Source: Argopecten irradians | Taxonomy: Eukaryota > Mollusca > Bivalvia > Pectinida > Pectinidae | Direction of reading: 5' to 3' | Assembly (NCBI RefSeq): GCF_041381155.1 | Contig: NC_091134.1 | Location: 5,942,255-6,006,254 of the forward strand | Length of the DNA: 64,000 nucleotides | Shown here: positions 15,901 through 56,900 of the stretch, piece by piece | How the letters are laid out: each line of letters begins with the position of its first letter | How positions within the stretch are numbered: the stretch's first letter is position 1 | Program-made: the position numbers and the translations under genes | The notes under the pieces: model-generated | The model's database searches: none | What the model was told of the DNA's origin: nothing | What the model saw: only the letters and a program-made list of their open reading frames with translations

Positions 15901-15987
15901 AACAATAGCCCACTGTTATACAACAATAGCCCACTGTCTGTTGGTAATATACATCAATAGCACACTGTCTGTTGGGATTATACAATA
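9918..15987. repeat. 30-bp minisatellite (about 200 copies), 6.1 kb
   Basis: The unit is GCCCACTGTCTGTTGTATTA plus TACAACAATA, with common 31-bp variants (GTTGGTATTATACAAC, CTTTTAGTATTATAC) and 29-bp variants. Each unit holds a near-palindrome GTTGTATTATACAAC. Because 30 is a multiple of three, both strands give long open frames (YNNSPLSVVL on plus, TDSGLLLYNT on minus) that carry no domain. Higher-order structure is visible: the block around 12029-12290 recurs at 13713-13974 (offset 1684), and the TTATATTATACATCAATATC-containing block at about 12897 recurs at about 14676. The array ends about 75 bp from the last RING codons of the minus-strand ligase gene. Confidence 0.97.
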
Positions 15988-33489: not shown

Positions 33490-36400
33490 CGCTTAGTAAG
33501 ATCAGACATAACTGACGTTATTAACTTCATCTGTTTTGGCCCTAGAGCCCTCCGCACATTGGCGAACGCTTAATAATGACACTACTATAGTAATCTTTGT
33601 CTGTTTTGCCCCTAGAGCCTTCCTCACATGGGCTAACGCTTACCCTGGACACTACTATTATTAACTTCGTCTGTCTTGGCCCTCGAGCCTTCTTTTTTTC
33701 GGCGAACGCTTAACATGGACACTACTATTATTCGTCTGTTTTGGTCCTAGAGCCTTTCTTACATGGGGGACATCTTAACATTGACACCTCTATTATTAAC
33801 TTCGTCTGTCTTGGCCCTAGATCCTTCCTCACATGGGCGAACGCTTGAAGTGTAACATGGACACTACTATTTTTAATTTCGTCTGTTTTTGCCATCGAGC
33901 CTTCCTCACATGGGCGATTGATTAACATTGACACTACTATTTTTAACTTCGTCTGTCTTGGCCCTAGAGCCTTCCTCACATGGGCAAACGCATAACATTG
34001 ACACTTTTATTATTAACTTCGTCTGTCTTGGCCCTAGAGCCTTCTTCACATGGGCAAACGCTTTCAGTGTAACATGGGCACCACTATTATTAACTTCGTC
34101 TGTTTTGGCCAAAGAGCCTTCCTCACATGGGCGATCGATTAACATGGACACTGCTATTATTAATTTCGTCTGTCTTGGCCCTAGAGCCTTCCTAACATGG
34201 GCAAATGCTTAACATGGACACTACTATTGTTGACTTCGTCTGTCTTGGCCCTAGAGCCTTCCTCACATGGGCAAATGCTTAACATGGACACTACTATAAT
34301 TAACTTTGTCTGTCTTGGCCCTAGAGCCATCCTTAAATGGGTGACATCTTAACATCGACACTACTATTGTTGACTTCGTCTGTCTTGGCCCTAGAGCCTT
34401 CCTTTCATGGGTGACATATTAACACGGACACTTATATTGCTGACTTTGTCTGTCTTGGCCGTAGAGCCTTCCTCACATGGGTGATTACTTAACACTTACA
34501 CTACTACAAAATCTATGATTAACTTCGTCTGTCTTGGCCCTAGAACCTTCCTCACTTGGGTTAACGCTTATTATGGACACTACCATTGTTAACTTCGTCT
34601 ATCTTGGCCCTAGAACCTTCCTCACATGGGCGAACGCTTATTATGGACACTACTATTGTTAACTTTGTCTGTCTTGACCCTAGAGCCTTCCTCACATGGG
34701 CAAATGCTTAACATGGACACTTTTGTTATTTACTTCGTTTGTCTTGGCCCTAGAGCCTTCCTAACATGGGCAAATGCTTAACATGGACACTACTATTATT
34801 AACTTCGTCTGTCTTGGCCCTAGAGCCTTCCTCACATGGGCAAATGCTTAACATGGACACTACTATTATTAACTTCGTCTGTCTTGGCCCTAGAGCCTTC
34901 CTTTCATGGATGACATCTTAACACGGACACTAATATTGCTGACTTTGTCTGTCTTGGCCGTAGAGCCTTCCTCACATGGGTGATTACTTAACACTTACAC
35001 TACTACAGAATCTATTATTAACTTCGTCTGTCTTGGCCCTAGAACCTTCCTCACATGGGCGAACGCTTATTATGGACCATACTATTGTTAACTTTGTCTG
35101 TCTTGGCCCTAGAACCTTCCTAACATGGGCAAATGCTTAACGTTGACACTACTATTATTTATTTCGTCTGTCTTGGCCCTATAGCCTTCCTGACATGGGC
35201 GAACGCTTACTATGGACACTACTATTGTTGACTTCGTCTGTTTTGGCCAAAGAGCCTTCCTCATATGGGCGATCGATTAACATGAACACTGCTATTATTG
35301 CTTTCGTCTGTCTTGCCCCTAGAACCTTCCTCACATGGGAAAATGCTTAACATGGACACTACTATCATTAACTTCGTCTCTCTTGGCCCTAGAGCCTTCC
35401 ACACATGGGCAAATGCTTAACATGGACACTTTTATTTCTTACTTCGTCTGTCTTGATCCTAGAGCCTTCCTCACATGGGCAAAGGCTTAACATGGACACT
35501 ACTATAATTAACTTTGTCTGTCTTAACCCTAGAGCCATCCTTAAATGGTTGACATCTTAACATCGACACTTCTATTGTTGACTTCGTCTGTCTAGGCCCT
35601 AGAGCCTTCCTAACTTGGATTAACGCTTAACATGAACACTGCTATTATTAATTTCGTCTGTCTTGGCCCTAGAACCTTCCTCACATGGGCGAACGCTTAA
35701 CCTGGACACCACTATTGTTAACTTCGTCTGTCTTGGCCCTAGCGCCTTCCTCACATGGGAAAATGCTTAACATGGACACTACTATTATTAACTTCGTCTC
35801 TCTTGGCCCTAGAGCCTTCCTCGCATGGGCAAATGCCTTACATGGACACTACTATTATTAACTACGTCTGTTTTGGCCCCAGAGCCTTCCTCACATAGGC
35901 AAATGCTTAACATGGACACTTTTATTACTAATTTCGTCTGTCTTGGCTCTAGAGCCTTCCTTACATGGGCAAATACTTAACATTGACACTACTATTATCA
36001 ACCTCATCTGTCTTGGCCCTAGAGCCTTCTTCACATGGGCGATCGATTAACATGGACACTGCTATTATTAATTTCGTCTGTCTTGGGCCTAGAACCTTCC
36101 TCACATGGGCGAACGCTTAACCTGGACACTACTATTGTTAACTTCGTCTGTCTTGGCCCTAGAGCCTTCCTAACATGGGCAAATGCTTAACATGGACACT
36201 ACTATTGTTGACTTCGTCTGTCTTGGCCCTAGAGCCTTCCTCACATGGGCAAATGCTTAACATGGACACTACTATAATTAACTTTGTCTGTCTTGGCCCT
36301 AGAGCCATCCTTAAATTGGTGACATCTTAACATCGACACTACTATTGTTGACTTCGTCTGTCTTGGCCCTAGAGCCTTCCTTTCATGGGTGACATATTAA

Positions 36401-38734
36401 CACGGACACTTATATTGCTGACTTTGTCTGTCTTGGCCGTAGAGCCTTCCTCACATGGGTGATTACTTAACACTTACACTACTACAAAATCTATGATTAA
36501 CTTCGTCTGTCTTGGCCCTAGAACCTTCCTCACTTGGGTTAACGCTTATTATGGACACTACCATTGTTAACTTCGTCTGTCTTGGCCCTAGAACCTTCCT
36601 CACATGGGCGAACGCTTATTATGGACACTGCTATTGTTAACTTTGTCTGTCTTGACCCTAGAGCCTTCCTCACTTGGGTTAACGCTTAACATGGACACTA
36701 CTATTATTAACTTCGTCTGCCTTGGCCCTGGTGCCTTCCTCACATGGGCAAATGCTTAACATGGACACTTTTGTTATTTACTTCGTTTGTCTTGGCCCTA
36801 GAGCCTTCCTAACATGGGCAAATGCTTAACATGGACACTACTATTATTAACTTCGTCTGTCTTGGCCCTAGAGCCTTCCTTTCATGGGTGACATCTTAAC
36901 ACGGACACTAATATTGCTGACTTTGTCTGTCTTGGCCGTAGAGCCTTCCTCACATGGGTGATTACTTAACACTTACACTACTACAGAATCTATTATTAAC
37001 TTCGTCTGTCTTGGCCCTAGAATCTTCCTCACATGGACGAACGCTTATTATGGACCCTACTATTGTTAACTTTGTCTGTCTTGACCCTAGAGCCTTCCTC
37101 ACTTGGGTTAACGCTTAACATGGACACTACTATTATTAACTTCGTCTGTCTTGGCTCTAAAACCTTCCTCACATGGGCAAATGCTTAACGTTGACACTAC
37201 TATTATTAATTTCGTCTGTCTTGGCCCTATAGCCTTCCTGACATGGGCGAACGCTTACTATGGACACTACTATTGTTGACTTCGTCTGTCTTGACCCTAG
37301 AGCCTTCCTCACATGGGCAAATGCTTAACATGGACACTACTATAATTAACTTTGTTTGTCTTAACCCTAGAGCCATCCTTAAATGGTTGACATCTTAACA
37401 TCGACACTTCTATTGTTGACTTCGTCTGTCTAGGCCCTAGAGCCTTCCTAACTTGGATTAACGCTTAACATAAACACTGCTATTGTTGACTTCGTCTGTC
37501 TTGGCCCTAGCGCCTTCCTCTCATGGGCAAATGATTAACATGGACACTACTATTATTAACTTCGTCTGTCTTGGCCCTAGAGCCTTCTTCACATGGGCAA
37601 ATGCTTAACATGGACACTACTATTATTAACTACGTCTGTTTTGGCCCCAGAGCCTTCCTCACATAGGCAAATGCTTAACATGGACACTTCTATTACTAAT
37701 TTCGTCTGTCTTGGCTCTAGAGCCTTCCTCACATGGGCGAACGCTTAACATTCGACACTACTATTGTTGACTTCGTCTGTCTTGGCCCTAGCGCCTTCCT
37801 TACATGGGCAAATACTTAACATTGACACTACTATTATCAACCTCATCTGTCTTGGCATCAGAGCCTTCTTCAAATGAGCAAATGCTTAACATGGACACTA
37901 CTATTATTAACTACGTCTGTCTTGGCCCCAGAGCCTTCCTCACATGGGCAAATGCTTAACATGGACACTACTATTATTAACTTCATCTGTCTTGGCCGTA
38001 GAGCCTTCTTTACATGGGCAAATGCTTAACATGGACACTACTATTATTAACTACGTCTGTCTTGGCCCCAGAGCCTTCCTCACATGGGCAAATGCTTAAC
38101 ATGGACACTACTATTATTAACTTCGTCTGTCTTGGCCCCAGAGCCTTCCTCACATGGGCAAACACTTAACATGGACACTTTTATTATTTACTTCGTCTGT
38201 CTTGGCCCTAGAGCCTTCCTCACATGGACAAATGCTTAACATGGACACTACTATTATTAACTTCGTCTGTCTTGGCCCTAGAGCCTTCCTCACATGGGCA
38301 AACACTTAACATGGACACTTTTATTATTTACTTCGTCTGTCTTGGCCCTAGAGCCTTCCTCACATGGACAAATGCTTAACATGGACACTACTATTATTAA
38401 CTTCGTCTGTCTTGGCCCTAGAGCCTTCCTCACATGGGCAAATGCTTAACATGGTCACTAATATTACTGACTGCGTCTGCCTTGGCCCTAGAGCCTTCCT
38501 CACTTGGGTTAACGCTTAACATAGACATTACTATTATTAACTTCGTATGTCTTGGCCCTAGAACCTTCCTTGCATGAGTGACATCTTAACATGGACACTT
38601 ATATTACTGACTTTGTCTGTCTTGGCCGTAGAGCCTATCTCACATGGGTAATTACTTAACACGGACACTACTACATAATATATGATTAACTTCGTCTGTC
38701 TTGGACCTAGAGCCTTCCTCACACGGGTTAACGC
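33490..38734. repeat. 70-bp minisatellite, left block (about 75 copies)
   Basis: The unit is CTTAACATGGACACTACTAT, TATTAACTTCGTCTGTCTTG, GCCCTAGAGCCTTCCTCACA, TGGGCAAATG. Variant units with GGCCGTAGAGCC and CACTACTACAGAATCTATTA recur with an offset of about 1978 bp (34190-34960 against 36170-36940), so the block has higher-order structure. It stops cleanly at ...GGTTAACGC, in the middle of a unit, at the left end of the 12.2-kb insert. The same unit, in the same orientation, resumes at 50952. Confidence 0.96.
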
Positions 38735-38738
38735 CTAA

Positions 38739-38932
38739 AGTGTACACGGAATGGTTTGGTATATAAGGCTAAATAAATGTGTCATTGTATAAAATTTAGA
38801 ATGGAGAAAGTACGAGTTTCATAGCGAATACGGTATTAGAGATAATGCGACTTTTCTCTAGAACACACCTGAAGCCCAAAGCCATTGACCCCGATTCGGG
38901 ACCCCTGACCTGTGACGTCACGAGGACAACGG
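38739..38932 (+). repeat. Left terminal inverted region of the 12.2-kb element
   Basis: A 16-bp perfect terminal repeat (AGTGTACACGGAATGG) and, 172 bp further in, TGTGACGTCACGAGGACAAC. The sequence between is diverged from the right end, though of similar length. Confidence 0.8.
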
Positions 38933-39530
38933 GACCTACTCTACTCGCATAAGATAGAGTGGCGATTTTCTGTGTCTGCCATCTAATATAAACAATCTGT
39001 TTGTAAATATCGATTTTTACAGACACAAGTACCTCTGTACATGTCCGATACCTATTTAATATTATCCTCAATCACAGATATGAGTTTGGAATACGCTTGA
39101 AAATAGGGATTTATACCATGCATATATTGATGTACCTGTCGTAGATAAATAAACGTCTATATTTATAGACAATTTTTTGCACAATTATTCGCCCCTCTTT
39201 ATAATATTTATTTGATAGTTTAATCATTAATCCCGAGTTTCGGTCCGTCCGTTTGTCGATTTCGAAATTTTAGCTGACTGGTGACCCCGTGGGCACTTTA
39301 CCTTTGGGTAGCCCCACAGCGGCCCCACAGCTAACCCCTTATAGAGACGCCATCTTTAAAAATCATCACAGCCAAAAACGCTCCAGAGTAATGGCTCAAT
39401 TGTTCTCATTTTAACAAAAATATTTGGACAAAGCAAGTGAGTATTTACATTGTTTACATTATTAGTATCCTTTTGTGATATTTTGAGAGGTTATCTCTCG
39501 GTTTAACGGTTTTATTCAAGATAATCCGTT

Positions 39531-39713
39531 ATGGCAGGTCGAGGGAGGCAAGCTTTGGTGTTGGGGCATAGTTTCATAGCGCGTTTAGAGCGTTATGCTT
39601 TAGACTTACACGGGCAGGCTAATTTAGGTCTCGATCGGGATTACGTCACCTTTCATGGCTTGCCGGGAGCTCAGATCTGTCGTATTCGATCAGCCCTCAG
39701 GTGGCGGCGATAA
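39531..39713 (+). CDS. Short SGNH-hydrolase-like fragment, 60 residues
   Basis: The frame reads MAGRGRQALVLGHSFIARLE, then NLGLDRDYVTFHGLPGAQ. A VLGHSF(I/V)xRL start followed by a FHG(L/V)xG step is a pattern I associate with SGNH/GDSL-like domains carried by repetitive-element proteins of molluscs and other invertebrates; that association is from memory and not checked. At 60 residues it is far shorter than an SGNH domain (about 180-200), so it is a fragment, or the first exon of something whose rest is lost. It lies in the spacer of the composite repeat. Function unknown. Confidence 0.4.
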   Translation: MAGRGRQALVLGHSFIARLERYALDLHGQANLGLDRDYVTFHGLPGAQICRIRSALRWRR

Positions 39714-39743
39714 CCTGCCTTAATTTCTTCGTTAAGGCAGGTT
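39712..39743. other. Perfect 12-bp stem-loop after the SGNH-like fragment
   Basis: AACCTGCCTTAA, an 8-base loop (TTTCTTCG), then TTAAGGCAGGTT. It begins at the stop codon of the 60-codon frame. Could be an end signal or a recombination-site-like structure of the small element. Confidence 0.6.
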
Positions 39744-40660
39744 CTCTTGTGGCGGTATTTTAGCCGCACCTTCACACAAAAAACTTATATTTTGATAAAA
39801 AAGTAAGATTTTAATCGACTTTATTATTAATAAATCCGGCCACCCCGGCTGGGGTGAGCCATGAACGCCATTACCTTGTTGCATTGATCATTTTGTGTGA
39901 ACAGAGCTATGCTGCAGGGAAGACGATGTAGTCCAAGTAGTAGTTTAGAGCTGTATAAGAATGAGCAGGGCAAAAATAAACGTCTATATTTATAGACAAT
40001 TTTTTGCACAATTATTCGCCCCTCTTTATAATATTTATTTGATAGTTTAATCATTAATCCCGAGTTTCGGTCCGTCCGTTTGTCGATTTTCGAAATTTTA
40101 GCTGACTGGTGACCCCGTGGGCACTTTACCTTTGGGTAGCCCCACAGCGGCCCCACAGCTAACCCCTTATAGAGACGCCATCTTTAAAAATCATCACAGC
40201 CAAAAACGCTCCAGAGTAATGGCTCAATTGTTCTCATTTTAACAAAAACCCTCCCTCCACAAGCCCTTCTTTTCTTATCAGCTCCATTTAGTTTTTGGTT
40301 CACTTTAATTTTATGTATTATGGAACCGATCAGTATTATTTTCATGATGTTACATTCAATATGATGCATTTTATTAATAGATTTTAAGTAAGTTGTTCTA
40401 GTCAAAGGTTGTGTTTATATTTACCATAAGTTTGGCGGTATTTTAGCCGCACCTTCACACAAAAAACTTATATTTTGATAAAAAAGTAAGATTTTAATCG
40501 ACTTTATTATTAATAAATCCGGCCACCCCGGCTGGGGTGAGCCATGAACGCCATTACCTTGTTGCATTGATCATTTTGTGTGAACAGAGCTATGCTGCAG
40601 GGAAGACGATGTAGTCCAAGTAGTAGTTTAGAGCTGTATAAGAATGAGCAGGGCAAAAAT

Positions 40661-42229
40661 GAACATTTCTGCGCGATTTCTGCACAATATTATACAACAT
40701 AATGTGTATAATAATCCACGTACGTTGTAAATCTACGGTATTAGGAACCACATATACATGAATATTATGTAAAGGATTCTTGACTATGTTATCCAAAACC
40801 CGACTCGGGTCGTTGTACTGGTCTTTTCATATAACCTACCCATACGAATTAAGTTATGATTCTAAACAGAATATTTTGCATATATGTAAATGCATCTACT
40901 AATTGCGTTATATCTGAAATCGATCCATTTTTTTGACGAATTTATACATTCAGTTTTTATATAATACAATACATCCGACGACTTGTTGATATTTCGCTCA
41001 AATTCATTTATTAGTGTCTTCAATTGAAAAAATAAATCATGCACGAGTCAGACAAAAAAAAGACTGAAGATGTCTATGTATAATCCAAGTTGCAGATATC
41101 AAGTACAGAACAAAATCAGAACTGTACTTCCGAAAAGCCAATGTCGTGCTGCGTTTATCTCTTTACCTGTATACTGCAGTAACTAAAACGCGTGGTCAAC
41201 CGAGACTAATGAGGGGGCTAATAACCAGATTACGTAAGAAAGGTGTTTAGTGACCTGTCACGCTTCGTTGATTAGCTCACGTCAGGTGTCAAAAGTAAGA
41301 TCACAGGTAAGTTAGCGATGGACCATCATTTAATTGTTGTATAATCTCATATTTGTTTACACTTATAGATCCTTGGTTTACAGTAAAATATACCGTTCGA
41401 ACATAACATATAACAAGAGTATAAATCACTAGATGTATACATAATTGTATATTTCAGAATGACCAATGTATACATTTGTCTCGTATATATATTTCTAGTT
41501 ATGTATATGAATTCTTATATCAGAAACTACAAAATTATTTACAAATGGCATGTCGAGAAAGAACAATGCAAATATGATGCACAATGTCAGAATTTTGATA
41601 TTTCTGGTAGTTGCTAGATTTTGGATATCCAATTCTTTGTGAATTTTGGTCAATATCGATCATTATATAATACTAATAATGATAATCTATATGACCAATA
41701 AATGTACTGTTGAATATTGTTAAAATAACACATGTTCTCATACATGTACTCGTACATGTAGCTATAAAAGGAAGATAGACTCGTTACAGCTATAAATGAA
41801 TTATGTATTTTAAATTCAATTTCTCAAATGGTTTATTTTTTTACCCCCTCCCAATTTATGTCTATGATATTTACGTGTATTGAACTATGAAATACATTTA
41901 ACACCTTTTCTTTTCGTTATGCTGATTCTTGAAATAGGCCAAGTGAATTTTTATTTATACAGAAACATATTCAAATGGATAATTATATGACCATCATTTT
42001 TCAAATTCGTCTCTTTTTATATGACATTATGAAAATTGAATATTCCCAGGTTTGAAAATTTAGTAAGCTGTTAAAACAGAGATAAGATCTCTACTTAAAA
42101 GTTTTTACACAAGGTACACCTGGCTTATACCAGAAACATAAATAACTTATAATTTCCGCTCATATCACGAAAACGCGCGCTTTTCTGATCTTGGTACCAA
42201 CAGAGTTAGCTGCCCTTCCCTAAAACAGC
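40661..42229. other. AT-rich DNA inside the 12.2-kb element, probable promoter side of its gene
   Basis: No exon found on either strand. GC content rises just before 42230 (CAAGATGGCGACGCGCAGCC), as at a promoter-proximal first exon. No TATA box is claimed. Confidence 0.35.
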
Positions 42230-45200
42230 ATGGGAAACAAGATGGCGACGCGCAGCCCAAGGCTTCGACAAATAAAATCCAAAAATGGTGATGTTGTTGA
42301 TTCGTACCAGTAAGTATATTGTAAGTACATGCATAAATATAGCGTTTAGATCGATAACCATTCAACAAAAGTAGAAATATATGCATGTTTTGTCGTGAAA
42401 TTGTGTTTATCTGTTGTGAAATGTTGACGCCCGGTGTCTACGAAAAAATGTACCACCACTTCATGGCTGCGGCAATATAAATACATATGGAATTCATATT
42501 TACCTTGATTATTTTAGCCTTCACAATAAACTAAACTCCATACTTTTTATCCCTTTATCTTACGCTGCAAAAAAAAGCAATAAAATCATACTTTATTCTT
42601 ATAGACTATTAGATTAAATGTTTTCAGTGTTTTGTTTCAACTTTGAAACGAAAAACTGAGTGACGTGGGGCCCGGGTTGGGGCACCGTGATGGAGGTTGA
42701 GATGTAAGCTTAGTCTGGTATACAGAATTTAAAGCTGACAGTTAATTTTTGGAAATTTTGTTGCACAAAAGTGTTCACAGTAATTAATTAATACTTTCGC
42801 TGATAATTTCGAAACATTGGTTTTTACTAATCACACACCAAGCAAATCACTCGGCTTCCTGAAACGCAATGGTTTTTACTAATCACACACCAAGCAAATC
42901 ACTCGGCTTCCTGAAACGCAACCTAAAAATCAACTCACCAGAGTACTAGGCTAGTCACCACACATAAAAGAACATGCATGCAAGGCAATCACTTGACCCA
43001 AACTGGAATACTGCTCTCCCGTATGGGACCCCTACCACACACACAGATCACAAACTAAACTACATACTTTTTATCCTTTTATCTTAAGCTGCACAAAAAG
43101 AAATTAAAAAAAATCCTTAATTTCACAACTGTACATAACATTTCACACGCCCCTGCATGGGCGTATCCCAGATCTTAAATCGTCACTATTGACGACTCGA
43201 TCTCCTAACAAGAAGAAGAACCTCGGGATTATCAGCTCTCATATGCAGTGATACGACTTCACACACATCATAACATGCGGTGGCCGGGTGCTTCAGATGT
43301 ACCGACGTATATACTAGCACAATTTAAGCTCTCCATATGTGGGCTGTGAGTTCAAATCCCATGTGGGGCAGTTGCCGGTACTGACAACTGGTCGGTGATT
43401 TTTCTCCAGGTACTCCGGCTTTCCTCCAACAACAAACCTAGCTGGTACGTCGTTACATGACGCGACATCAGGATATCAAGGAAGGCAGGACAAAATGTGA
43501 TAAAAGTACTTAAATTTGTGCTCATGTGAAATTTTATGAAATTCGTCTTAAAAGTTTTAAATTTTTGCACGCTAAGGCTCGCAAAATTTAAAAAAAAATT
43601 AGACTCGATTCATGAATTTTCTTATGAAATGAAAACTCATTTAAAGATCCTATAAAATAAGTATTTAGTTACAAGTTAATTTTTATTGTTTCAGTGAGCT
43701 GAACAACACTGCACATTTTCCAATTGCAAGGGCTAGGCCTAGACAATTAGAGAGCTGGACCACAGGAATATACCCCGTCGAAATTTTGCATAATGATCAT
43801 GAGAGATCCGGATATGTGAAAGTCCATTACATTGGTAAGTATTCACCATTTCTCTTTGTAACATTTTTTAAGGTAAATTTAAATAAAGAGATCATAGGCT
43901 CCAAATTAATGCATAAGTTTCTGTATCTTATAATTATGATGTAGGCATTGGTGACTTTACCAGGCTAAATAACATTGAGACAATTTAACATTAATGTTGA
44001 GATATTACTAGTTTGTTCGCCATTGTCATACGTAAGGATTGACCATTAAAATATGTTTTTAGAGAGATAATAAGTTTTCAAAAATTGTAAGGATGAATAA
44101 TTGTATATGTACGTGTCCATGCATTATTCATGTGTTAAAATTGTCCAATTGGCTTGCCAGTTGTTTATATTAACAACATGGCGCACCCTAAGAGTGCTCT
44201 AACTTGCCCAATGTACCAATGTTCAACTTTGTCCTAAAATGTTTGACCTTCTATTCATTGCCTTTTTTCTCTCAATTTTTCAGGATGGAACAAAAAATAT
44301 GATGAGACAATAAAAACTGAAGAAATTGTCACACTCCCAAGACCTTTCACTACATTCTCGAAGAAACTTGCTGTAGCAATCAAAGAAAGTTTGGGTCCTT
44401 GTTCAAAGGTAGACAGCCTGGTAAAGTTGAAGCTACCAATTAGTGAGGAGGAGTACAACCTATTGTCAAATTCAGGGACACCCCACAAAGTTACACGAAC
44501 AAAAACAGTCTACAAAATATCCAGTCGAAACCAGTTAAATCACTACCTAGGTGAAGGATGGGATTACAGAATTTGTAACGAAGAATGTGATAACATCTAT
44601 GTATTAACATCAACGGTAAAATTTTACCTTCATGTAAGGAAACCCCTGGAAGATTATCAACTATTTCCAGATCATGTGGAAAAGTACAGGATTGACCGAG
44701 GATTTCAGCTAACATTTTCATTTGTCCGTAAGTGCGGAAACAGATCTGATGTTAACAAACTACTAAACAGCGACAAGTTGTAATGTGTTGACTTTGTCAC
44801 TACCTTGTAGTTGATGTGAAAAAGTAGCTTTTTCTGAGTGGTTTACATCCCTTATGTTTGGCTGATCGTTTTTCGTCTGTCACTACCTAGGTGAAGGATG
44901 GGATTACAGAATTTGTAACGAAGAATGTGATAACATCTATGTATTAACATCAACGGTAAAATTTTACCTTCATGTAAGGAAACCCCTGGAAGATTATCAA
45001 CTATTTCCAGATCATGTGGAAAAGTACAGGATTGACCGAGGATTTCAGCTAACATTTTCATTTGTCCGTAAGTGCGGAAACCGATCTGATGTTAACAAAC
45101 TACTAAACAGCGACAAGTTGTAATGTGTTGACTTTGTCACTACCTTGTAGTTGATGTGAAATAGTAGCTTTTTCTGAGTGGTTTACATCCCTTATGTTTG

Positions 45201-47789
45201 GCTGATCGTTTTTTGTCTGTCACTACCTAGGTGAAGGATGGGATTACAGAATTTGTAACGAAGAATGTGATAACATCTATGTATTAACATCAACGGTAAA
45301 ATTTTACCTTCATGTAAGGAAACCCCTGGAAGATTATCAACTATTTCCAGATCATGTGGAAAAGTACAGGATTGACCGAGGATTTCAGCTAACATTTTCA
45401 TTTGTCCGTAAGTGCGGAAACCGATCTGATGTTAACAAACTACTAAACAGCGACAAGTTGTAATGTGTTGACTTTGTCACTACCTTGTAGTTGATGTGAA
45501 ATAGTAGCTTTTTCTGAGTGGTTTACATCCCTTATGTTTGGCTGATCGTTTTTCGTCTGTCGTCTTTTTGCCCCAATTTATTTTGTCCATCACAAATTTT
45601 TGTTTTTTTTTTTTTTAATTATGGTGGTTTTGTCTAAATCCACTCTTTTTTCTTTGTTAGAGGAGCAATGGAAGGAGCCAATCACATTAGATGTTGTCAA
45701 AAAAATTAAAAGTAAGTTAGAAAATGAACTTTCACTTTCATTTCAGACAAATGATAAAGATCTTAACATTTTAAGAGCAGAACTCTATAGGCTGAAAAAG
45801 AATGGCCTGCGAGCCAAAGTTAAAGGCGGAAATCAATTTCGACGCTTTAAAAATTCCATTAGTCTTTCCAAATTTTCCTGGGATGTATCATTGGCCCTCC
45901 ATGAAACTGAAATACGAGTCGAAGAAATGAAAAGTAAACTTTTGAAATGTGTTGAAGAAAAAAATATTATTGAGGGGAAGTTTTGTAATTTTGTAAGTAA
46001 TACCAAGAAAAAAGAACAGAAGTTTGTTCAAAAGATTTCATCTTTGGAAAATGAATTGAACAAATCTTCAACTGGAAACAAACAATGTGATACTAAGTAT
46101 GAGAATGACTGTAGTGCTAGAAAAAGGAAATCAATACAAGAGTGTTCTCCTTCATATCGGACAAAAATGAAAAAAAAAGATAATGAGAAATGTAAAAATG
46201 CCCTTGAAAACTTACAACTCAATGGTTGTAAACCAGTTAGTGTTACTGTTCTTAGAAATGGTAAAGAAGAAGTTATTAAACTTTTTCAGGCAGATGAGGA
46301 TGATATGGAAAATGTAGATGAAACTAAGCTAGATAGTATTAATGCTTTATTGTATATTTTGGATACATTTAATGTGTCTCGGGAAGCCTATCATGAGTTA
46401 AGTTCACTGTTTAAGAGTATGCCCCGTGCTCATAATATAGCGGAGTATATTAAAAGTCTGAATCAAGGGTTTGAAATCATCAACACACCAGATGGTCTTG
46501 GGGTACAGCAGTCATTGAAACAGAGACTAGTTGATGTAGTTTCACAGTTATTGTTAGAAAACGATGACCTCATTCCTGATAACAATTTGAAGGTAAAAAT
46601 ATCGGGCGATGGCACTCGGGTTGGGAAAAGGTTACATGTGGTTAACTTCGCTTTTAATATTGTCAATGAAGGTTCAGCACATCAAATTTGCTATCCACTA
46701 TGTATAGTTCAAACAAAGGAGAAGTATGCAGAACTAAACATAGCACTAGATGATCTGCAGCGGGATGTAGCAGAATTACAGGGTAGTAAACTGAAGGTTG
46801 GTGATCGAGAGTTCACAGTGAATATTTACTTAGGTGGTGATTATAAATTCTTGTTAGTTGCTGTTGGAATTTCTTCAGTTGCAGCTACACATTCCTGTAT
46901 ATACTGCAAATGTGAGAAAAAGGAAAGAATAAATTTAACAAAGCGGTGGTCGATGAAAGACCCGGTTCTTGGTGCAAGGTTATCGTACACGTCATCAGAG
47001 CCTGTGGATACCCCGGCAAGAGGCAGGTCCTCTAAACGGAAAAAAGTACAGTCTTATTCTATTGTAAATCAACCTCTTTTTCCATGTATTACACCCTTTC
47101 AAGTAGTATTAGATCAGCTACATCTCTTCCTGAGAATAACTGACAAGCTCTTTAACCTTTTAGTTTCAGAACTGAGAGTGTTGGATAATATTTCACAGCA
47201 GACAACATTTGTTGAATTAGATAGAGCAAAAATCAAGCATGTTGCTGCATTAGAGAGTGTATTACAGCAAATGGGTATTCCATTTGAACTTTTTGTTAAC
47301 AAAGATACAAGAAAGTTAGAGTACAGAGATTTGACTGGGCCAGAAAAACTAACACTGATGGACAAATTTCAGGCATCTGATCTTCTTCCTGACAAAGATA
47401 GAGCTGACCAGATACAGAAGTTGTGGGATGATTTTTCAGAAATAAATGTACTTCTGAGATCTGAATCCCCCAATCCAGAAGATTTCCAGTTTAAAGCTGA
47501 AAGCTGGTGCAACATTTATGTTTCTTTATACCAATGTCGGGACATAACTCCTTATATACACACACTTCGGTACCATGTCAGTGAGTTGTTACAGCTTCAT
47601 GGAAACCTTGTCAGATTTTCACAACAAGGGCTAGAAAAAATGAATGATATCATTACTAAGAGCTACTTCAGGGCAACAAACCACAGAGGCCTTTCTGCCC
47701 TGAAACAAGTAATGGAAAAACAAAACAGACTTGTTCTTTTGGCAAGACATAAAAGGAAAAAACGTGTATACAAAGATAGAAAGCAATAG
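42230..47789 (+). CDS. Multi-exon transposase-like protein with chromo-barrel/Tudor-knot-like N-terminus
   Basis: Four exons with matching phases: 42230-42309, 43695-43834, 44284-44727 and 45661-47789, about 930 residues. Exon 1 is basic (MATRSPRLRQIKSKNG). Exons 2-3 give YPVEILHNDHERSGYVKVHY and then IGWNKKYDE, the core of chromo-barrel/Tudor-knot folds that bind modified histones or RNA. Early exon 4 is Lys/Glu-rich and coiled-coil-like. The C-terminal half has SGDGTRVGKRLHVVNFAF, YLGGDYKFLLVAVG, CIYCKC and RFSQQGLEKMNDIITKS. I propose D (codon 46608), D (46839) and E (47634) as an RNase-H-type DDE triad with a zinc-like CxxCxC between; this is inference. The frame is intact over 700 codons. 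The gene is the only large one in the 12.2-kb element, so it is its probable transposase. Alternative: a host gene of transposase origin. The ATG at 42242 has a good context too. Confidence 0.75.
42530..43120. repeat. About 55-bp direct repeats bounding a LINE-bearing segment
   Basis: AACTCCATACTTTTTATCCC and following TTATCTTACGCTGCAAAAAA (from about 42533) recur in diverged form at about 43061 (AACTACATACTTTTTATCCT). Inside, TTTTTACTAATCACACACCA plus about 35 bp is itself duplicated in tandem (42820-42922). Confidence 0.7.
42825..43060 (+). mobile_element. LINE reverse-transcriptase C-terminal fragment
   Basis: Frames give TPSKSLGFLKRNLKINSPE (about 42839-42948) and, after a frame change, LEYCSPVWDPYHTHTDHKLN (about 43003-43062). 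These match the conserved 'LGFLRRNL' and 'P-LEYxxxVWDPY' region after the RT active site of non-LTR elements of the jockey/CR1 type. Only some 80 residues remain, with a duplication and a frame change, so it is a dead fragment in intron 1 of the transposase-like gene. Confidence 0.75.
43279..43500 (+). mobile_element. tRNA-derived SINE
   Basis: The head GGTGGCCGGGTGCTTCAGAT (A-box region) and GTGAGTTCAAATCCC (B box, consensus GTTCAAATCC) are spaced as in a tRNA with a long variable arm. The core continues GTGGGGCAGTTGCC, TTTTTCTCCAGGTACTCCGG and CTTTCCTCCAACAAC, and the tail CTGGTACGTCGTTACATGAC. This resembles a SINE widespread in bivalves. It lies in intron 1 of the transposase-like gene. 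Confidence 0.8.
44541..45560 (+). repeat. 340-bp exact tandem triplication of the end of exon 3
   Basis: CACTACCTAGGTGAAGGATG begins at 44541, 44881 and 45221, and the third copy ends at 45560, so there are three copies of exactly 340 bp. Copies 2 and 3 differ at only a few bases from each other and from copy 1. Each contains a TCCGTAAGTGC donor (44728, 45068, 45408). In copies 2 and 3 the sequence before GGTGAAGG (TTTTTCGTCTGTCACTACCTAG) could act as an acceptor. The segment from that AG to the donor is 177 nt (59 codons), entering and leaving in phase 1. Confidence 0.93.
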
Positions 47790-48060
47790 ATAGATTTGAA
47801 ATATTTACTGGTTACATAGATATATCATGACTGCTGATCTGGTCATCATCTAGGTGTTTTAACAAACAAACCATCCTTTGTTATCATCATGAGTATAGTA
47901 TATGTGTGTCACACAGTCATTTTGAATTGTCATATAGACAAGTGATATTACTTGGTGTACACATGTACATGATATACTGGTACATGTGTATGTACCAATT
48001 TTTTCAATGTTGAGTTTTTATTTTCTTTGTTATTACTGTTTATATTTTCGTTAATTTTAT
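47790..48060. other. Probable 3' untranslated region of the transposase-like gene
   Basis: AT-rich with repeated TACATGT steps. No canonical AATAAA close to the stop was found; ATTAATAAATTTGG occurs at about 48740. Nothing else seen. Confidence 0.3.
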
Positions 48061-48440
48061 ATCATTTTTAGTAGCACAAGAAGTGCATGTGATGTAAATT
48101 GTGCAATATATTGTAAGTGCTGAATCATAAATGTATGAATGTGCATGTAATGTACATGTGTCCATGCAATATAAAATGTGATTTCTCTTAAATACATGCA
48201 AGTTTCACATTCAAATATTCCATTACATGGATGCATATGCATTATATGAATAACATTAATTCAGAATTGTGGTGATATTTTGGTTATTTTAATTTATTTT
48301 TGATAGCAAAAGGAGTGCATGTGATGTCAATTGTGCATTAAATTGTAAGTGTTGACAATCAAATGTGTCTGAATGTATATGTAATGTACATGTGTCAAAT
48401 ATATAATCATATATAAATGTTCCATTCCATATGCATATGA
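48061..48440. repeat. Diverged direct duplication (period about 238 bp)
   Basis: AGTGCATGTGATGTAAATTG and ATGTAATGTACATGTGTC at 48083-48165 recur at 48312-48397. The two copies differ by many substitutions and small gaps, so the duplication is old. Confidence 0.65.
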
Positions 48441-49068
48441 ATAACAGGAATTCAAAATCGAATATCTTAATATTGCATGGCAGCAAAACTTTTCAAGTTT
48501 TAAGTGATATATATGCAGTAATCATTAATATTGTTGTGTTGTTTTGATATGTCGTATTGGTATGATGATTATCAAAACATACAGACTGTACTCTGCATAT
48601 GAATGTGCCAAAATATAAGTGTTGACTCCGGAAACCAGAAACATACATGTTTCTGACAGGTGAAGTTAAGCTCTATAAAGAATTTGCTTATTTTGAAACT
48701 AAACCATTCCATTAATACATTTTAATGATGTTTGTTTTTAATTAATAAATTTGGTGCTTATTAAACATTTGATTTAGTTTTGCGTTATATTTTTACCTAC
48801 ATGTGTATCAAATAACAATGTAACCCAAGATTGCTGGGACTTCCAATTAGGAATTAAAGATAGTGGAAAGGTCTACTCACGGAGGGAATTTGAACATGTA
48901 CATCTTAATATGTTACCTACAGGTAACCATGTTCTGACAGTTATTTTAATTTTTTAAATGGATCGAACAAGGTTTCATATTTTAAAAGCATGTTGTGGAC
49001 AGCAAGTCTTGTCATGAACATGCATGCCTAATGTCGAAAACCATATTTCAACTTTGCTATATGTGGTT

Positions 49069-49176
49069 TAGTCCGCTAAACCTGCCTATATTATTAGGCT
49101 TTTTTTATTATTTTTATATATTAGGCAAAAAAATAAATTTAAAAAGCCTAATAATATAGGCAGGTTTAGCGGACTG
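49069..49176. mobile_element. Foldback MITE with 35-bp perfect arms and 9-bp direct repeats
   Basis: The left arm 49070-49104 (AGTCCGCTAAACCTGCCTAT then ATTATTAGGCTTTTT) is the exact reverse complement of 49141-49175. TATGTGGTT occurs directly before (49060-49068) and after (49177-49185), consistent with an 8-9 bp target-site duplication of the hAT or Mutator type. The 36-bp loop is A/T only apart from a TTAGGC step. Perfect arms suggest a recent insertion. Confidence 0.85.
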
Positions 49177-49185
49177 TATGTGGTT

Positions 49186-50737
49186 AGCTACAAGGAACAA
49201 TAACAAAAAGACCATACAGTTCAATGTCTGACCATCAGCTAATAAAGGTAAATGAAAATATTTTGAACTCGGAGAACTGTGAAATGTGTTCCATATGAAT
49301 GAGCATCTCCATATGTAACTGTATTATCTGAAATATGGCAAAACATATATGCACTATATGTACTTTGTAGATGTAAATGAACAATATAAAAAAAATATGT
49401 GCATAAGCCATATGAATATCAATAATTGATTTACGTATAGGTCTATGAATATTTCATCTTTATTTGTGGATTGATTTTATCAGAGATTTAGATAGTATAC
49501 TATTACTATTTAATATTCAATATTGGATACCAATAAATTTCCCAAATTACATCACTGATATCTAGAGATTTATGAATAAAAAAATAAAATAATAATAAAC
49601 ACATTTACAGAGCCATGCAAATTCATTGCTTTTTCCACCTTGTCCGTATCTTTGATTTCATTACCATAGTAAGGCCAAAACAAAATATATATCTGTTTAG
49701 GGTTACCTTACCTACCCTCATTTTCCCTCACTTTTCTACGGAAAAAAAAGATCTCAGACTCCGGTTCCGGTCATTATTTTAGTGTGAAAGACACTAAAAA
49801 AATATATGACCCTAATTTTTGTTTGCCAATATTTTTTTGGCCTAATCTGAATTATTTTCTTTATGTAAGTGGTGTCCTGAATATCAATTTCTGGTCGAAA
49901 AAATTGCCAAGATTCGAAATATAAAGCAAGAAAACTATTTTCTATATATCTGAATAATTCAATTACCGTAAATAATCCAGACAATTTACATATCGACCTT
50001 TTAAACGTATGGACATAAAGTAGACCCGGAACAAACGTACGGGGTACGATTTCCTATGTACACACACTAAGTTACCAGGATTTCCCTTCTATAAATACGG
50101 GTTTTATTTTAGACTTTGAATTACGACACCTGATTGGTTGTTTAGAAAAATATTCGTTCTACGTCACATTCGTTGTAACTAAATAAAGGATGTGGGAAAC
50201 TTCCGAAACATCCGATAGAGTTGACCCTTGTCAGGTTTCAGGATGGCTTTGCTTGTCAAAATCGCTCTGGATGCCATCTCCTAATAATGAAAATACGGTA
50301 TTTATATTGAAGCGATACCGATTTTATTTTCAGAAATCGATAACATTTGTTTTGAAGTACACATGATCGGTAGTAATAGAGAGGGACAAAATGATGTAAT
50401 AATCAACAACAGGTTTTACAGCTATTTTCGCAAAGGAATTTAGAGAGGGAAAGCTCTTTTCATCATACAGAGGGCGCTATCAGGGGCGATAACTCATATA
50501 AAAGATAGTCATTTCGTGATATGATTTACTTATGTATTTGGCATGATTTCAGTTGCAATATTTCCTATTTTATATATGATTAAATTTTCACAATAACTGT
50601 ATACTGTATATCAAGGATTTATAAGTGAGACTCATATACGTCCTTGTGTATATATATCTGTAAAATTCTCGTAACCCCATTTTAGGAATACATATGTCCA
50701 CCTTTGTGCTATAACCCCACTACCAAACACCTCACTG
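49186..50737. other. AT-rich DNA inside the 12.2-kb element, no gene seen
   Basis: No exon recognised on either strand. A short open frame at 49754-49984 (minus) shows no domain. The part after 50500 is the approach to the right terminal region. Confidence 0.4.
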
Positions 50738-50951
50738 CCGTTGTCCTCGTGACGTCACATCCGGTTATTCCCCAAATCAGCGTGAGCGGCCGATTCCCTG
50801 ATTAGCAGTTGATATACAGGTAAAAATCGAGCACTTCAGAGGGCGGTATCTCGGTACTGAAGCGGCCGATTTTGATGCGGTTTTCAACATTCTTGTCAGG
50901 AGATCAAACAGAATAACATATCTAAATATCATTTTCCATTCCGTGTACACT
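50738..50951 (-). repeat. Right terminal inverted region of the 12.2-kb element
   Basis: Read on the minus strand it starts AGTGTACACGGAATGG, as does the left end on plus, and at 192 bp reaches TGTGACGTCACGAGGACAAC. Between lie GC-richer segments such as CGGCCGCTTCAGTACCGAGA that the left end lacks, so the two ends have diverged or been partly replaced. Confidence 0.8.
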
Positions 50952-53900
50952 TTAACATGGTCACTACTATTATTAACTTCGTCTGTCTTGGCCCTAGAAC
51001 CTTCCTCACATGGGCGAATGCTTAACCTGAACATTACTATTGTTAACTTCGTCTGTCTTGGCCCTAGAGCATTCTGACATGGTCGAATGCTTAATCTGGA
51101 CACTACTATTGTTAACTTTGTCTGTCTTGACCCTAGAGCCTTCTTCACATGGGCAAATGCTTAACATGGACACTACTATTATTAACTTCGTCTGTCTTGG
51201 CCCTAGAGCCTTCCTTACATGGTTGACATCTTAACATGGTCACTAATATTACTGACTGCGTCTGCCTTGGCCCTAGAGCCTTCCTCACATGGGTTAACGC
51301 TTAACATGGACACTACTATTATTAACTTCGTCTGTCTTGGCCCTAGAGCCTTCCTCACTTTGGCGATCGATTAACATGGACACTACTATTATTAACTTCA
51401 TTTGTATTGGCACTAGAGCCTTCCTTACATGGGCGAACGCTTACAGTGTAACATGGACACTACTATGGTTAAATTCGTCTGTCTTGGCCATAAAGCCTTC
51501 CTCACGTGGACTGAGGCCTAACTTGGACACTATTATTTTAAACTACGTCTATTTTTGTCCTAGAACCTTCCTGACATGGGCGAACACTTAACCTGGACAA
51601 TGTTGTTGTTAATTTCGTCTGTCTTGGCTCTAAAGCCTTGCTCACATAGGCAAACGCTTAACATGGGCACTACTATTATTAACTTCGTTTGTCATGGCTC
51701 TAAAACCTTCCTCACACGGGCGAACGCTTAACATTGACACTACTATTGTTAACTTCGTCTGTTTTGGCCCCAGAGCCTTCCGTACATGAGCGAACGCTTA
51801 ACAAGGACACTACTATTGTTGACTTCGTCTGTCTTGGCCCTAGCGCCTTCCTCACACCGGCGAACGCTTAACATGGACACTACTATTGTTAACTTCGTCT
51901 GTTTTGGCCCCAGAGCCTTCCGTACATGAGCGAACGCTTAACAAGGACACTACTATTGTTGACTTCGTCTGTCTTGGCCCTAGCGCCTTCCTCACATGGG
52001 CAAACGCTTAACATTGACACTACTATGGTTAAATCCGTCTGTCTTGGCCCTAAAGCCTTACTCACGTGGACTGACGCCTAACTTGGACACTATTATTTCA
52101 AACAACGTCTATTTTTGTCCTAGAACCTTCCTGACATGGGCGAACACTTAACCTGGACAATGTTGTTGTTAACTTCGTCTGTCTTGGCTCTAAAGCCTTG
52201 CTCACATAGACAAACGCTTAACATGGGCACTACTATTATTAACTTCGTTTGTCTTGGCTCTAAAACCTTCCTCACACGGGCGAACGCTTAACATTGACAC
52301 TACTATTGTTAACTTCGTCTGTTTTGGCCCCAGAGTTTTCCGTACATGAGCGAACGCAAGGTCACTACTATTGTTGACTTCGTCTGTCTTGGCCCTAGCG
52401 CCTTCCTCACATGGGCAAACGCTTAACATTGACACTACTATTATTGACTTCATCTGTATTCGCTCTAGAGCCTTCCTCACATGGGCGAACGATTACAGTG
52501 TAACATGGACTTCGTCTGTCTTGACCCTAGAGCCTTCCTCACTTGGGTTAACGCTTAACATGGACACTACTATTATTAACTTCGTCTGTATTGGCCCTAG
52601 AGCCTTCCTCACTTGGGTTAACGCTTTAGTGTAACATGGACACTACTATTATTAGCTTCGTCTGTCTTGGCCCTAGAGCCTTCCTCACTTGGGTTAACGC
52701 TTAACATAGACACTACTATTATTAACTTCGTCTGTATTGGCCCTAGAGCCTTCCTCACTTGGGTTAACGCTTTAGTGTAACATGGACACTACTATTATTA
52801 ACTTTGTCTGTCTTGACCCTAGGGCCTTCCTCACTTGAGTTAACGCTTAACATAGACACTACTACTATTAACTTCGTCTGTATTGGCCCTAGAGCCTTCC
52901 TCACTTGGGTTAACGCTTTAGTGTAACATGGACACTACTACTATTATTAGCTTCGTCTGTCTTGGCCCTAGGGCCTTCCTCACTTGGGTTAACGCTTAAC
53001 ATGGACACTACTATTATTAACTTCGTCTGTATTGGCCCTAGAGCCTTCCTCACTTGGGTTAACGCTTTAGTGTAACATGGACACTACTATTATTAGCTTC
53101 GTCTGTCTTGGCCCTAGGGCCTTCCTCACTTGGGTTAACGCTTAACATGGACACTACTATTATTAACTTCGTCTGTATTGGCCCTAGAGCCTTCCTCACT
53201 TGGGTTAACGCTTAACATGGACACTACTATTATTAACTTCGTCTGTATTGGCCCTAGAGCCTTCCTCACTTGGGTTAACGCTTAACATAGACACTACTAT
53301 TATTAACTTCGTATGTCTTGGCCCTAGAGCCTTCCTTACATGGTTGACATCTTAACATGGACACTAATATTACTGACTTCGTCTGTCTTGGCCGTAGAGC
53401 CTTCCTCACATGGGTAATAACTTAACACGGACAATGCTACAGAATATATGATTAACTTCGTCTGTCTTTGCCCTAGAGCTTTCCTCACTTGGGTTAACGC
53501 TTAACATGGACACTACTATTATTAACTTCGTCTGTCATGGCCCTAGAACCTTCCTCACTTGGGCGAGCGCTTATTATGGACACTACTATTGGTAACTTTG
53601 TCTGTCTTGACCCTAGAGCCTTCCTCACATGGGCGACCGCTTATTATGGACACTACTATTATTAACTTCGTCTGTCTTGGCCCTAGAGCCTTCCTCACAT
53701 GGGCGAGCGCTTATTATGGACACTACTATTGTTAACTTTGTCTGTCTTGACCCTAGAGCCTTCCTCACTTGGATTAACGCTTAACATGGACACTACTATT
53801 ATTAACTTCGTCTGTCTTGGCCCTAGAGCCTTCCTCACATGGGCAAATGCTTAACGCTTAACATGGACACTACTATTATTAACTTCGTCTGTCTTGGCCC

Positions 53901-56900
53901 TTGAGCCTTCCTCACATGGGCAAATGCTTAACATGAACATGGACAATACTATTATTAACTTCGTCTGTCTTGGCCCTAGAACCTTTCTCACATGGGCAAA
54001 TGCTTAACGTTGACACTACTATTATTAACTTCGTCTGTCTTGATACTAGAGCCTTCCTAAAATGGGTGAACGCTTACTATGGACACTACTATTGTTAAGT
54101 TCGTCTGTCTTGGCCCCAGAGCATTCTGACATGGTCGAATGCTTAACCTGGACACTACTATTGTTAAGTTCGTCTGCCTTTGCCCTAGAGCCTTCCTGAC
54201 ATGGGCAAATGCTTAACATGGACACTACTTTTATAAATTTCATCTGTCTTGGCCCTAGAGCCTTCGTTGCATGGGCAAATGCTTAACATGGACACTTTTA
54301 TTATTAACTTCGTCTGTCTTGGCCCCAGAGCCTTCTTCACATGGGCGACTTCTTAACATGGACACTACTATTGTTAACTTCGTCTGTCTTGTCCCTAGAG
54401 CCTTCCTGACATAGACGAAGGCTTAAAGTGGACACTTCTATTGTTAAATTCGTCTGTCTTGGCCCTTGAGATTTCCTCACGTTTACCGACGCCTAAGATG
54501 GACACTTTTATTTTAAACTACGCCTGTTTTTGTCCTAGAACCTTCCCTAGAGAATTCCTCACATGGGCAAACGCTTAACATGGACACTTCTATGGTAAAC
54601 TTTGTCTATCTTGGCCCTAGAGCCTTCCTAACATGGACAAACACTTTATATGGACACTACTATTTTTAACTTCGTTTTGGCCTTAGAGCCTTCTTCACAT
54701 GGGCAAATGCTTAACATGGACACTGCTATTATTAATTTCGTCTGTCTTGGCCCTAGAGCCTTCCTCACTTGTGTTAACGCTAAACAAAGACACTACTATC
54801 ATTAACTTCGTCTGTCTTGGCCTTAGAGCATTACTTACATGGTTGACATCTTAACATGGACACTAATATTACTGACTTCGTCTGTCTTGGCCGTAGCGCC
54901 TTCCTCACATGGGTAATTACTTAACACGGACACTACTACAGAATATATGATTAACTTCGTCTGTCTTGGCCCTAGAGTTTTCCTCACTTGGGTTAACGCT
55001 TAACATGGACACTACTATTATTAACTTCGTCTGTCTTGGCCCTAGAGCCTTCCTCACATGGGCGAGCGCTTATTATGGACACTACTATTGTTAACTTTGA
55101 CTGTCTTGACCCTAGAGCCTTCCTCACATGGGCGAGCGCTTATTATGGACACTACTATTGTTAACTTTGTCTGTCTTGACCCTAGAGCCTTCCTCACATG
55201 GGCGAGCGCTTATTATGGACACTACTATTATTAACTTCGTCTGTCTTGGCCCTAGAGCCTTCCTCACATGGGCGAGCGCTTATTATGGACACTACTATAA
55301 TTAACTTCGTCTGTCTTGGCCCTAGAACCTTTCTCACATGGGCAAATGCTTAACGTTGACACTACTATTGTTAACTTTGTCTGTCTTGACCCTAGAGCCT
55401 TCCTAAAATGGGCGAACGCTTACTATGGACACTACTATTGTTAAGTTCGTCTGTCTTGACCCTAGAGCCTCCCTAAAATGGGCGAACGCTTAACATGGAC
55501 ACTACTATTGTTAAGTTCGTCTGCCTTGGCCCTAGAGCCTTCCTGGCATGGGCAAATGCTTAACATGGACACTAGTATTATTTATTTCATCTGTCTTGGC
55601 CCTAGAGCCTTCTTCACATGGGCAAATGCTTAACATGGACACTTTTATTATTAACTTCGTCTGCCTTGGCCCCAGAGCCTTCTTCACATGGGCAAATGCT
55701 TAACATGGACACTGCTATTATTAATTTCGTCTGTCTTGGGCCTAGAACCTTCCTCACATGGGCGAACGCTTAACCTGGACACTACTATTGTTAACTTCGT
55801 CTGTCTTGGCCCTAGAGCCTTCCTAACATGGGCAAATGCTTAACATGGACACTTTTATTATTAACTTCGTCTGTCTTGGCATCAGAGCCTTCTTCACATG
55901 GGCAAATGCTTAACATGGACACTTGTATTATTAACTTCGTCTGTCTTGGCCCCAGAGCCTTCTTCACATTGGCGACTTCTTAACATGGACACTACGATTG
56001 TTAACTTCGTCTGTCTTGTCCCTAGAGCCTTCCTGACATAGACGAAGGCTTAAAGTGGACACTTCTATTGTTAAATTCGTCTGTCTTGGCCCTAGATATT
56101 TCCTCACGTGTACCGACGCTTAAGATGGACACTATTATTTTAAACTACGTCTGTTTTTGTCCTAGAACCTTCCCTAGAGAATTCCTCACATGGGCGAGCG
56201 CTTATTATGGACACTACTATTGTTAACTTTGTCTGTCTTGACCCTAGAGCCTTCCTCACATGGGCGAGCGCTTATTATGGACACTACTATTGTTAACTTT
56301 GTCTGTCTTGACCCTAGAGCCTTCCTCACATGGGCGAGCGCTTATTATGGACACTACTATTATTAACTTCGTCTGTCTTGGCCCTAGAGCCTTCCTCACA
56401 TGGGCGAGCGCTTATTATGGACACTACTATAATTAACTTCGTCTGTCTTGGCCCTAGAACCTTTCTCACATGGGCAAATGCTTAACGTTGACACTACTAT
56501 TGTTAACTTTGTCTGTCTTGACCCTAGAGCCTTCCTAAAATGGGCGAACGCTTACTATGGACACTACTATTGTTAAGTTCGTCTGTCTTGACCCTAGAGC
56601 CTCCCTAAAATGGGCGAACGCTTAACATGGACACTACTATTGTTAAGTTCGTCTGCCTTGGCCCTAGAGCCTTCCTGGCATGGGCAAATGCTTAACATGG
56701 ACACTAGTATTATTTATTTCATCTGTCTTGGCCCTAGAGCCTTCTTCACATGGGCAAATGCTTAACATGGACACTTTTATTATTAACTTCGTCTGCCTTG
56801 GCCCCAGAGCCTTCTTCACATGGGCAAATGCTTAACATGGACACTGCTATTATTAATTTCGTCTGTCTTAGGCCTAGAACCTTCCTCACATGGGCGAACG

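Follow-up and report, generated by a model that had tools for sequence, protein, structure and literature searches.

What lies between the two blocks of a 70-bp minisatellite in the scallop Argopecten irradians, and how did it come to be there? The arrays stand in a 64,000-nucleotide stretch of contig NC_091134.1 (positions 5,942,255 to 6,006,254, forward strand), which we call the window and by whose own numbering all positions are given. We suggest that the segment between them is, with a probability of about 0.78, an autonomous cut-and-paste DNA transposon of about 12.2 kb, which its transposase assigns to the broad EnSpm-Mirage-Chapaev-Transib (CMCT) clade, used here to comprise EnSpm, Mirage, Chapaev, Transib/RAG1, Plavaka, ESTA and Lanisha. 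The segment has the structure of an insertion with paired inverted ends, carries an intact transposase gene of RAG1 type and a second gene similar to chromobarrel proteins, and has relatives in scallops and in distant animals. Most notable about it, beyond what an earlier note on this DNA had described, is the combination of a RAG1-like transposase with a chromobarrel-like partner gene.

The features that define the insertion are as follows.

33519..38734, + strand: left block of the 70-bp minisatellite (target array), in phase with the right block across the join
38735..38738, + strand: left target copy, CTAA; the exact duplicate with the right side is TA only (symmetric ends), or TTAA with one mismatch
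38739..38754, + strand: left terminal inverted repeat AGTGTACACGGAATGG, 16/16 with the right end
38911..38932, + strand: left subterminal inverted block TGTGACGTCACGAGGACAACGG, 22/22, with the palindrome TGACGTCA inside
50738..50759, − strand: right subterminal inverted block, 22/22
50936..50951, − strand: right terminal inverted repeat
50952..50955, + strand: right target copy, TTAA
50956..58279, + strand: right block of the same 70-bp minisatellite, in phase across the join

The arrays, called by Tandem Repeats Finder at 33519-38738 and 50952-58279, have near-identical consensus sequences and lie on the same strand, and between them is an insert of 12,213 bp (38739-50951). At the left junction ...GGTTAACGCCTAA is followed by AGTGTACACGGAATGG, the flank ending in GCCTAA, and at the right junction CCATTCCGTGTACACT is followed by the flank, which starts TTAACATGG.... 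When the flanks are joined in silico with one target copy removed, the array runs in phase, with TCTGTCTTGG landmarks 70 bp apart across the join. Because inverted ends and an in-phase empty site occur together, the 12.2-kb segment is an insertion and not a coincidence.

The terminal inverted repeat is perfect over 16 bp, or 19 bp if TAA/TTA is counted. With three mismatches allowed, the 16-mer has two matches in the window against 0.58 expected by chance, and at least two were found in 11 of 100 shuffles, so that on its own it is not rare, yet both matches are exact and placed precisely at the two array breaks. The subterminal blocks, 172 bp (left) and 192 bp (right) inside the ends, are the only two matches to the 22-bp sequence in the window, with none expected (100 shuffles), and the longest inverted match that arose by chance between the two 250-bp subterminal stretches was 13 bp (2000 mononucleotide shuffles). 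The TGACGTCA within both blocks is known as a bZIP/CREB site. The earlier note had proposed a minisatellite split by a cut-and-paste element, with outer arrays in one orientation, inverted 16-bp ends and a second inverted block about 170-190 bp inside, and all of this is borne out, the cut-and-paste reading itself being well supported by the empty site, the paired ends and the intact transposase with its complete catalytic signature. Tandem arrays are difficult to assemble and the analysis covered assembled sequence, so an assembly join or array artefact might be proposed in place of an insertion; a false join would not place perfect inverted ends at each break, nor leave a duplicated TA and a unit that is in phase once the insert is taken out, and the proteins of both element genes (P0001 and P0027, below) are each listed on a contig of 75,513,862 bp, so that we consider this very improbable.

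The transposase is encoded by the second open reading frame (ORF) of the element.

45621..47789, + strand: ORF2, intact RAG1-like DDE transposase of 722 amino acids, stop included; D330, D407, C426, C429, H647, H652, E672

Searches used 45618-47786, with one extra codon at the start, and the translation of ORF2 is identical to the listed protein P0001. All seven signature residues are present, and the protein has a RAG1-type fold. Among 22 aligned proteins C426/C429 and H647 are conserved in all, H652 in 20 and E672 in 21, and a DxxH at 498-501 occurs in 22/22. A single-sequence search returned 26 proteins and a profile search 14, six of them new, each search having scored the roughly 8000 candidates sharing most words; the single-sequence search gave named homologues in the scallops Pecten, Ylistrum and Mizuhopecten, in pearl oyster, in two stony corals, in an acorn worm and in a sponge. 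In a tree built from 24 of the 32 proteins recovered, seven rows, from A. irradians, Pecten, Ylistrum and Mizuhopecten, group together with one further row (support 100/100); A. irradians is represented in the tree by two lineages and Ylistrum by three. NCBIfam gave no match for ORF2 or for exon 3 of the partner gene, and BFVD, in which a viral origin was looked for, none at E≤0.001. No chain of piggyBac, which is a TTAA family, is among the matches listed for ORF2, an absence rather than the outcome of a dedicated test. Two exact 20-base end patterns had no match in IMG/VR, and searches for relatives in IMG/VR and GTDB contigs gave 39 and 12 pattern matches, none of them confirmed, records from the genome of the window or a near one possibly being omitted.

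Upstream of the transposase, in the same orientation, lies the partner gene.

42230..42309, + strand: ORF1 exon 1, from ATG; donor CCA/gtaagtat
43695..43834, + strand: ORF1 exon 2, where the chromobarrel-like part begins; acceptor ttgtttcag/TGAG, donor TTG/gtaagtat
44284..44783, + strand: ORF1 exon 3, to the stop
44540..45559, + strand: 340-bp unit in three tandem copies that repeat the ORF1 3' end, between ORF1 and ORF2

The three exons, joined at canonical splice sites, give a chromobarrel/Tudor-knot-like protein of 239 amino acids, and the predicted splice product is identical to the annotated A. irradians protein P0027, which confirms the multi-exon coding that had been suspected. Four proteins came out of the search with ORF1, one of them identical to it, two from Mizuhopecten and one other. 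By the names given, isoform X1 of Mizuhopecten LOC110466641 (P0007) is a transposase and isoform X3 (P0030) an ORF1 homologue; since this locus yields both, the pairing of ORF1 with the transposase is not peculiar to the present insertion. Chromobarrel/Tudor-knot domains give ORF1 its best matches; with the profile, ARID4A is matched at 1.2e-4 and Mortality factor 4-like protein 1 at 1.2e-3, and Pfam MSL3_chromo-like matches all four ORF1 members at E≤1 (best 2.1e-4). Conservation extends outside the chromobarrel-like part as well. No kelch domain or PHD finger was matched in ORF1, the other ORFs being covered only partly; PHD finger protein 20 entries reach at most 17 bits to the ORF1 profile, in chains of 66-88 residues and with E 0.03 or worse. 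The 340-bp copies that follow the gene differ from each other at one to three positions.

The target-site duplication (TSD) is less simple than the junctions at first suggest. The consensus array unit at the target reads CTTAAC, and among 166 array sites with at most four mismatches to the 14-base AACGCTTAACATGG, CTTAA occurs at 118 and CCTAA at three. Of the TTAA duplication that had been proposed, the right copy reads TTAA and the left one CTAA, and a TTAA duplication is not established by this insertion. Symmetric ends leave two readings, ends of AAGTG...CACTT with a TA duplication, or AGTG...CACT with TTAA and a T-to-C change in the left copy; the change would fall inside the duplicated copy if the TSD is TTAA and in the flank if it is TA. 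Both require the same single T-to-C difference from the consensus, and the one copy therefore fits them equally. A 3-bp TAA duplication was set aside, as it would need asymmetric ends. Placing the boundary at the inner CAC (CACGG...CCGTG, with TA as target) would give CA..TG ends but require an unexplained palindromic target. As a separate feature of the array, recurrent insertions of 6-9 bp (CTACAAAAT/TACAGAATA types) stand at position 15/16 of the 70-bp unit, at 34504, 35003, 36482, 36981, 38672, 53441 and 54937 in the window.

To which known group does such an element belong? The CMCT clade is defined by C(2)C and H(3-4)H motifs, with mostly CA..TG ends and TSDs of 2-5 bp (PMC12730594). The scallop transposase has both motifs between the second D and the E as well as the RAG1-type fold, and its TSD falls in that range (TA exact or TTAA with one mismatch, in one copy), whereas its ends are AGTG...CACT and not 5'-CA..TG-3', which the source gives as usual and not invariable (PMC12730594). 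ESTA elements, which are EnSpm-like and have TA TSDs and, by HHpred, a RAG1-like transposase (PMC12730594), resemble by that description the scallop element in transposase and TA target, but are fungal, and those reported carry TET/JBP genes. RAG and Transib elements have 5-bp TSDs and CAC ends (PMC7204232, PMC4411706), and the Transib elements differ further in that the scallop element has a second gene. With RAGL, TransibSU and ProtoRAG the scallop element shares the RAG1 fold, the acidic and Cys-Cys/His-His signature, and a two-protein organization in which the second protein has a chromatin-reader type of domain. It differs from these in its ends (AGTG against CAC), its target (TA or TTAA against 5 bp), its partner (chromobarrel-like against kelch-PHD) and its gene arrangement (same orientation against convergent). 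RAG1L proteins carry Cx2Cx3GHx4C near the C-terminus (PMC7204232), as do some relatives of the scallop transposase, and the window protein does not. Chapaev and Chapaev3 share the clade signature, and Chapaev3 is comparable also in its TSD, which is TWA; neither the invariable 5'-CAC/GTG-3' ends described for them nor the position of Chapaev3 targets between A and T is seen here (PMC4079192). Among the 762 DDE families of a curated library for bivalves, two CMC families and no Transib are named in the part of the source used (PMC10294476). A published account of this element was not found in searches of one open-licence library, and a prior Repbase deposit may exist.

Several observations weigh against an autonomous element of this clade. 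Pfam gives no match for the window's own ORF2 protein. The chromobarrel match of the window's ORF1 lies under the Pfam cut-off (20 against 28 bits), and the structure prediction for ORF1, with a predicted local distance difference test score (pLDDT) of 39, was not used. AGTG...CACT ends break the CAC rule of RAG, Transib and Chapaev. Of 32 relatives, counting fragments, 12 have a zinc knuckle, C-x2-C-x3-[GDT]H-x4-C, within their final 120 residues (nine with GH), and its absence from ORF2 and its two closest scallop relatives may reflect loss of an end-binding part. ORF2 is also 91% identical to its Pecten maximus counterpart over 722 amino acids, and 96% in residues 321-430, which is compatible with a gene conserved by the host. 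One could thus imagine a domesticated RAG1-like gene in a recently moved or duplicated segment, whose transposase no longer mobilises DNA; the lack of the knuckle alike in P0001-P0003 and the single contig listed for each of these three would agree with it. We think this unlikely, given the perfect paired ends, the empty site that is in phase within a variable array, the retention of all seven signature residues and the coexistence of other lineages of the transposase family in the same species.

As the ends are known from a single copy, they could also belong to another element that carries the genes. In such a case a TTAA-specific element of another superfamily, Kolobok-like with 5'-RR ends, would have supplied the ends, and the RAG1-like gene pair would be cargo or a nested insertion. 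Kolobok elements are described as having a TTAA target, 5'-RR ends and, in several lineages, accessory genes (PMC9587614); to judge by that description the AG...CT ends (or AA, with a TA target) and the near-TTAA duplication (CTAA/TTAA, one copy) agree with it, and the insert does contain nested pieces.

39147..40664: nested duplicated blocks of the non-coding 5' region, in three pairs (232, 161 and 125 nt) with 97-100% identity
49070..49175: hairpin of 106 bp with arms of 46 nt, 91% complementary, and a 14-nt spacer; nested and resembling a miniature inverted-repeat transposable element

On the other side, Pfam found no second transposase in eight further ORFs of the 117 listed (at least 40 amino acids), and the RAG1-like gene is intact and stands mid-element with its partner. 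In almost all Kolobok transposases but Kolobok1, the conserved Cys of a zinc finger stand between C/DxxH and E (PMC9587614), whereas the scallop protein has its CxxC upstream, at 426-429, and no invariant or nearly invariant Cys in 502-672. We regard a passenger gene pair as quite unlikely.

Returning to the autonomous transposon, its movement may be pictured as follows. The transposase would bind the 16-bp ends and probably also the 22-bp subterminal block, its DDE active site would cut the element out, leaving hairpinned flanks if RAG1/Transib is a guide, and the element would insert at TA within the TTAA of a minisatellite unit, duplicating TA or TTAA. With less confidence, given the weak domain match, the ORF1 protein might serve as a histone-mark-reading co-factor in regulation or in the choice of target, its reader part being perhaps comparable to the PHD finger of RAG2.

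RAG1 is the enzyme that assembles human antibody genes, and RAG1 and RAG2 are thought to derive from a two-gene transposon. It is an open question how a RAG-type transposase becomes dependent on a partner that reads chromatin, and a RAG1-like lineage of its own, paired with another kind of reader-like protein, would offer an independent test case. With intact genes and a known repeat as target, insertion, excision and empty sites could be scored directly in scallop populations.

The array itself may already hold traces of such excision.

33844 and 34061: two left-block units with extra bases of the kind described next
51440..53075, + strand: six right-block units with 6-7 extra bp, ending in AGTG, at the target point of the element; candidate scars of excision

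When the arrays are aligned to the consensus, these eight units have 6-7 extra bp at the target point, in all cases AGTG followed by TAACATGG, and they hold eight of the 12 occurrences of AGTG in the arrays. The variants are GA-AGTG and TC-AGTG on the left and AC-AGTG (two units) and T-AGTG (four) on the right. The T-AGTG units are 0.92-0.99 alike and were therefore probably amplified together. The flanks of the others are 0.67-0.86 alike, where 400 random pairs drawn from 69 sites average 0.84; apart from the two left ones, at 0.91, they are no more similar than ordinary units, so that the AGTG units may go back to about three events. The insertions look suggestively like what is left by excision of elements with such an end, and the single T missing from them would favour TA over TTAA. 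Against such an origin, the A before AGTG is kept in only one of the four variants, and other indels (6-9 bp, unit position 15/16) recur in the array too. Tc1/mariner elements with CAGTG ends exist, and one of these could be an alternative source of the AGTG residues. A wider proposal, which we consider possible though short of probable, is that the element represents a metazoan lineage of the RAG1 branch that independently gained a chromobarrel partner in place of the RAG2 PHD finger, whose ends are now AGTG and whose target is TA within TTAA, and which has repeatedly entered and left this minisatellite at one point, leaving AGTG scars.

Other contents of the element and window are minor. No Rfam match at gathering score was found in 38735-50955. 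The duplicated blocks at 39147-40664, which look like nested repeats, come with a short ORF, MAGRGRQALVLGHSF.... The outermost 9 bp at the element's right end, GTGTACACT, recur without mismatch 79 times in a 41-bp array at 17544-21662 (about 100 copies), possibly by chance since GTGTACAC is a palindrome. At 9930-15985 there are about 200 copies of a 30-bp unit with an imperfect palindrome (TTGTATTATACAA), and a 21-bp array of 67 copies at 4815-6220 has frames that read as KYDSYDE/D-type repeats, with several frame shifts.

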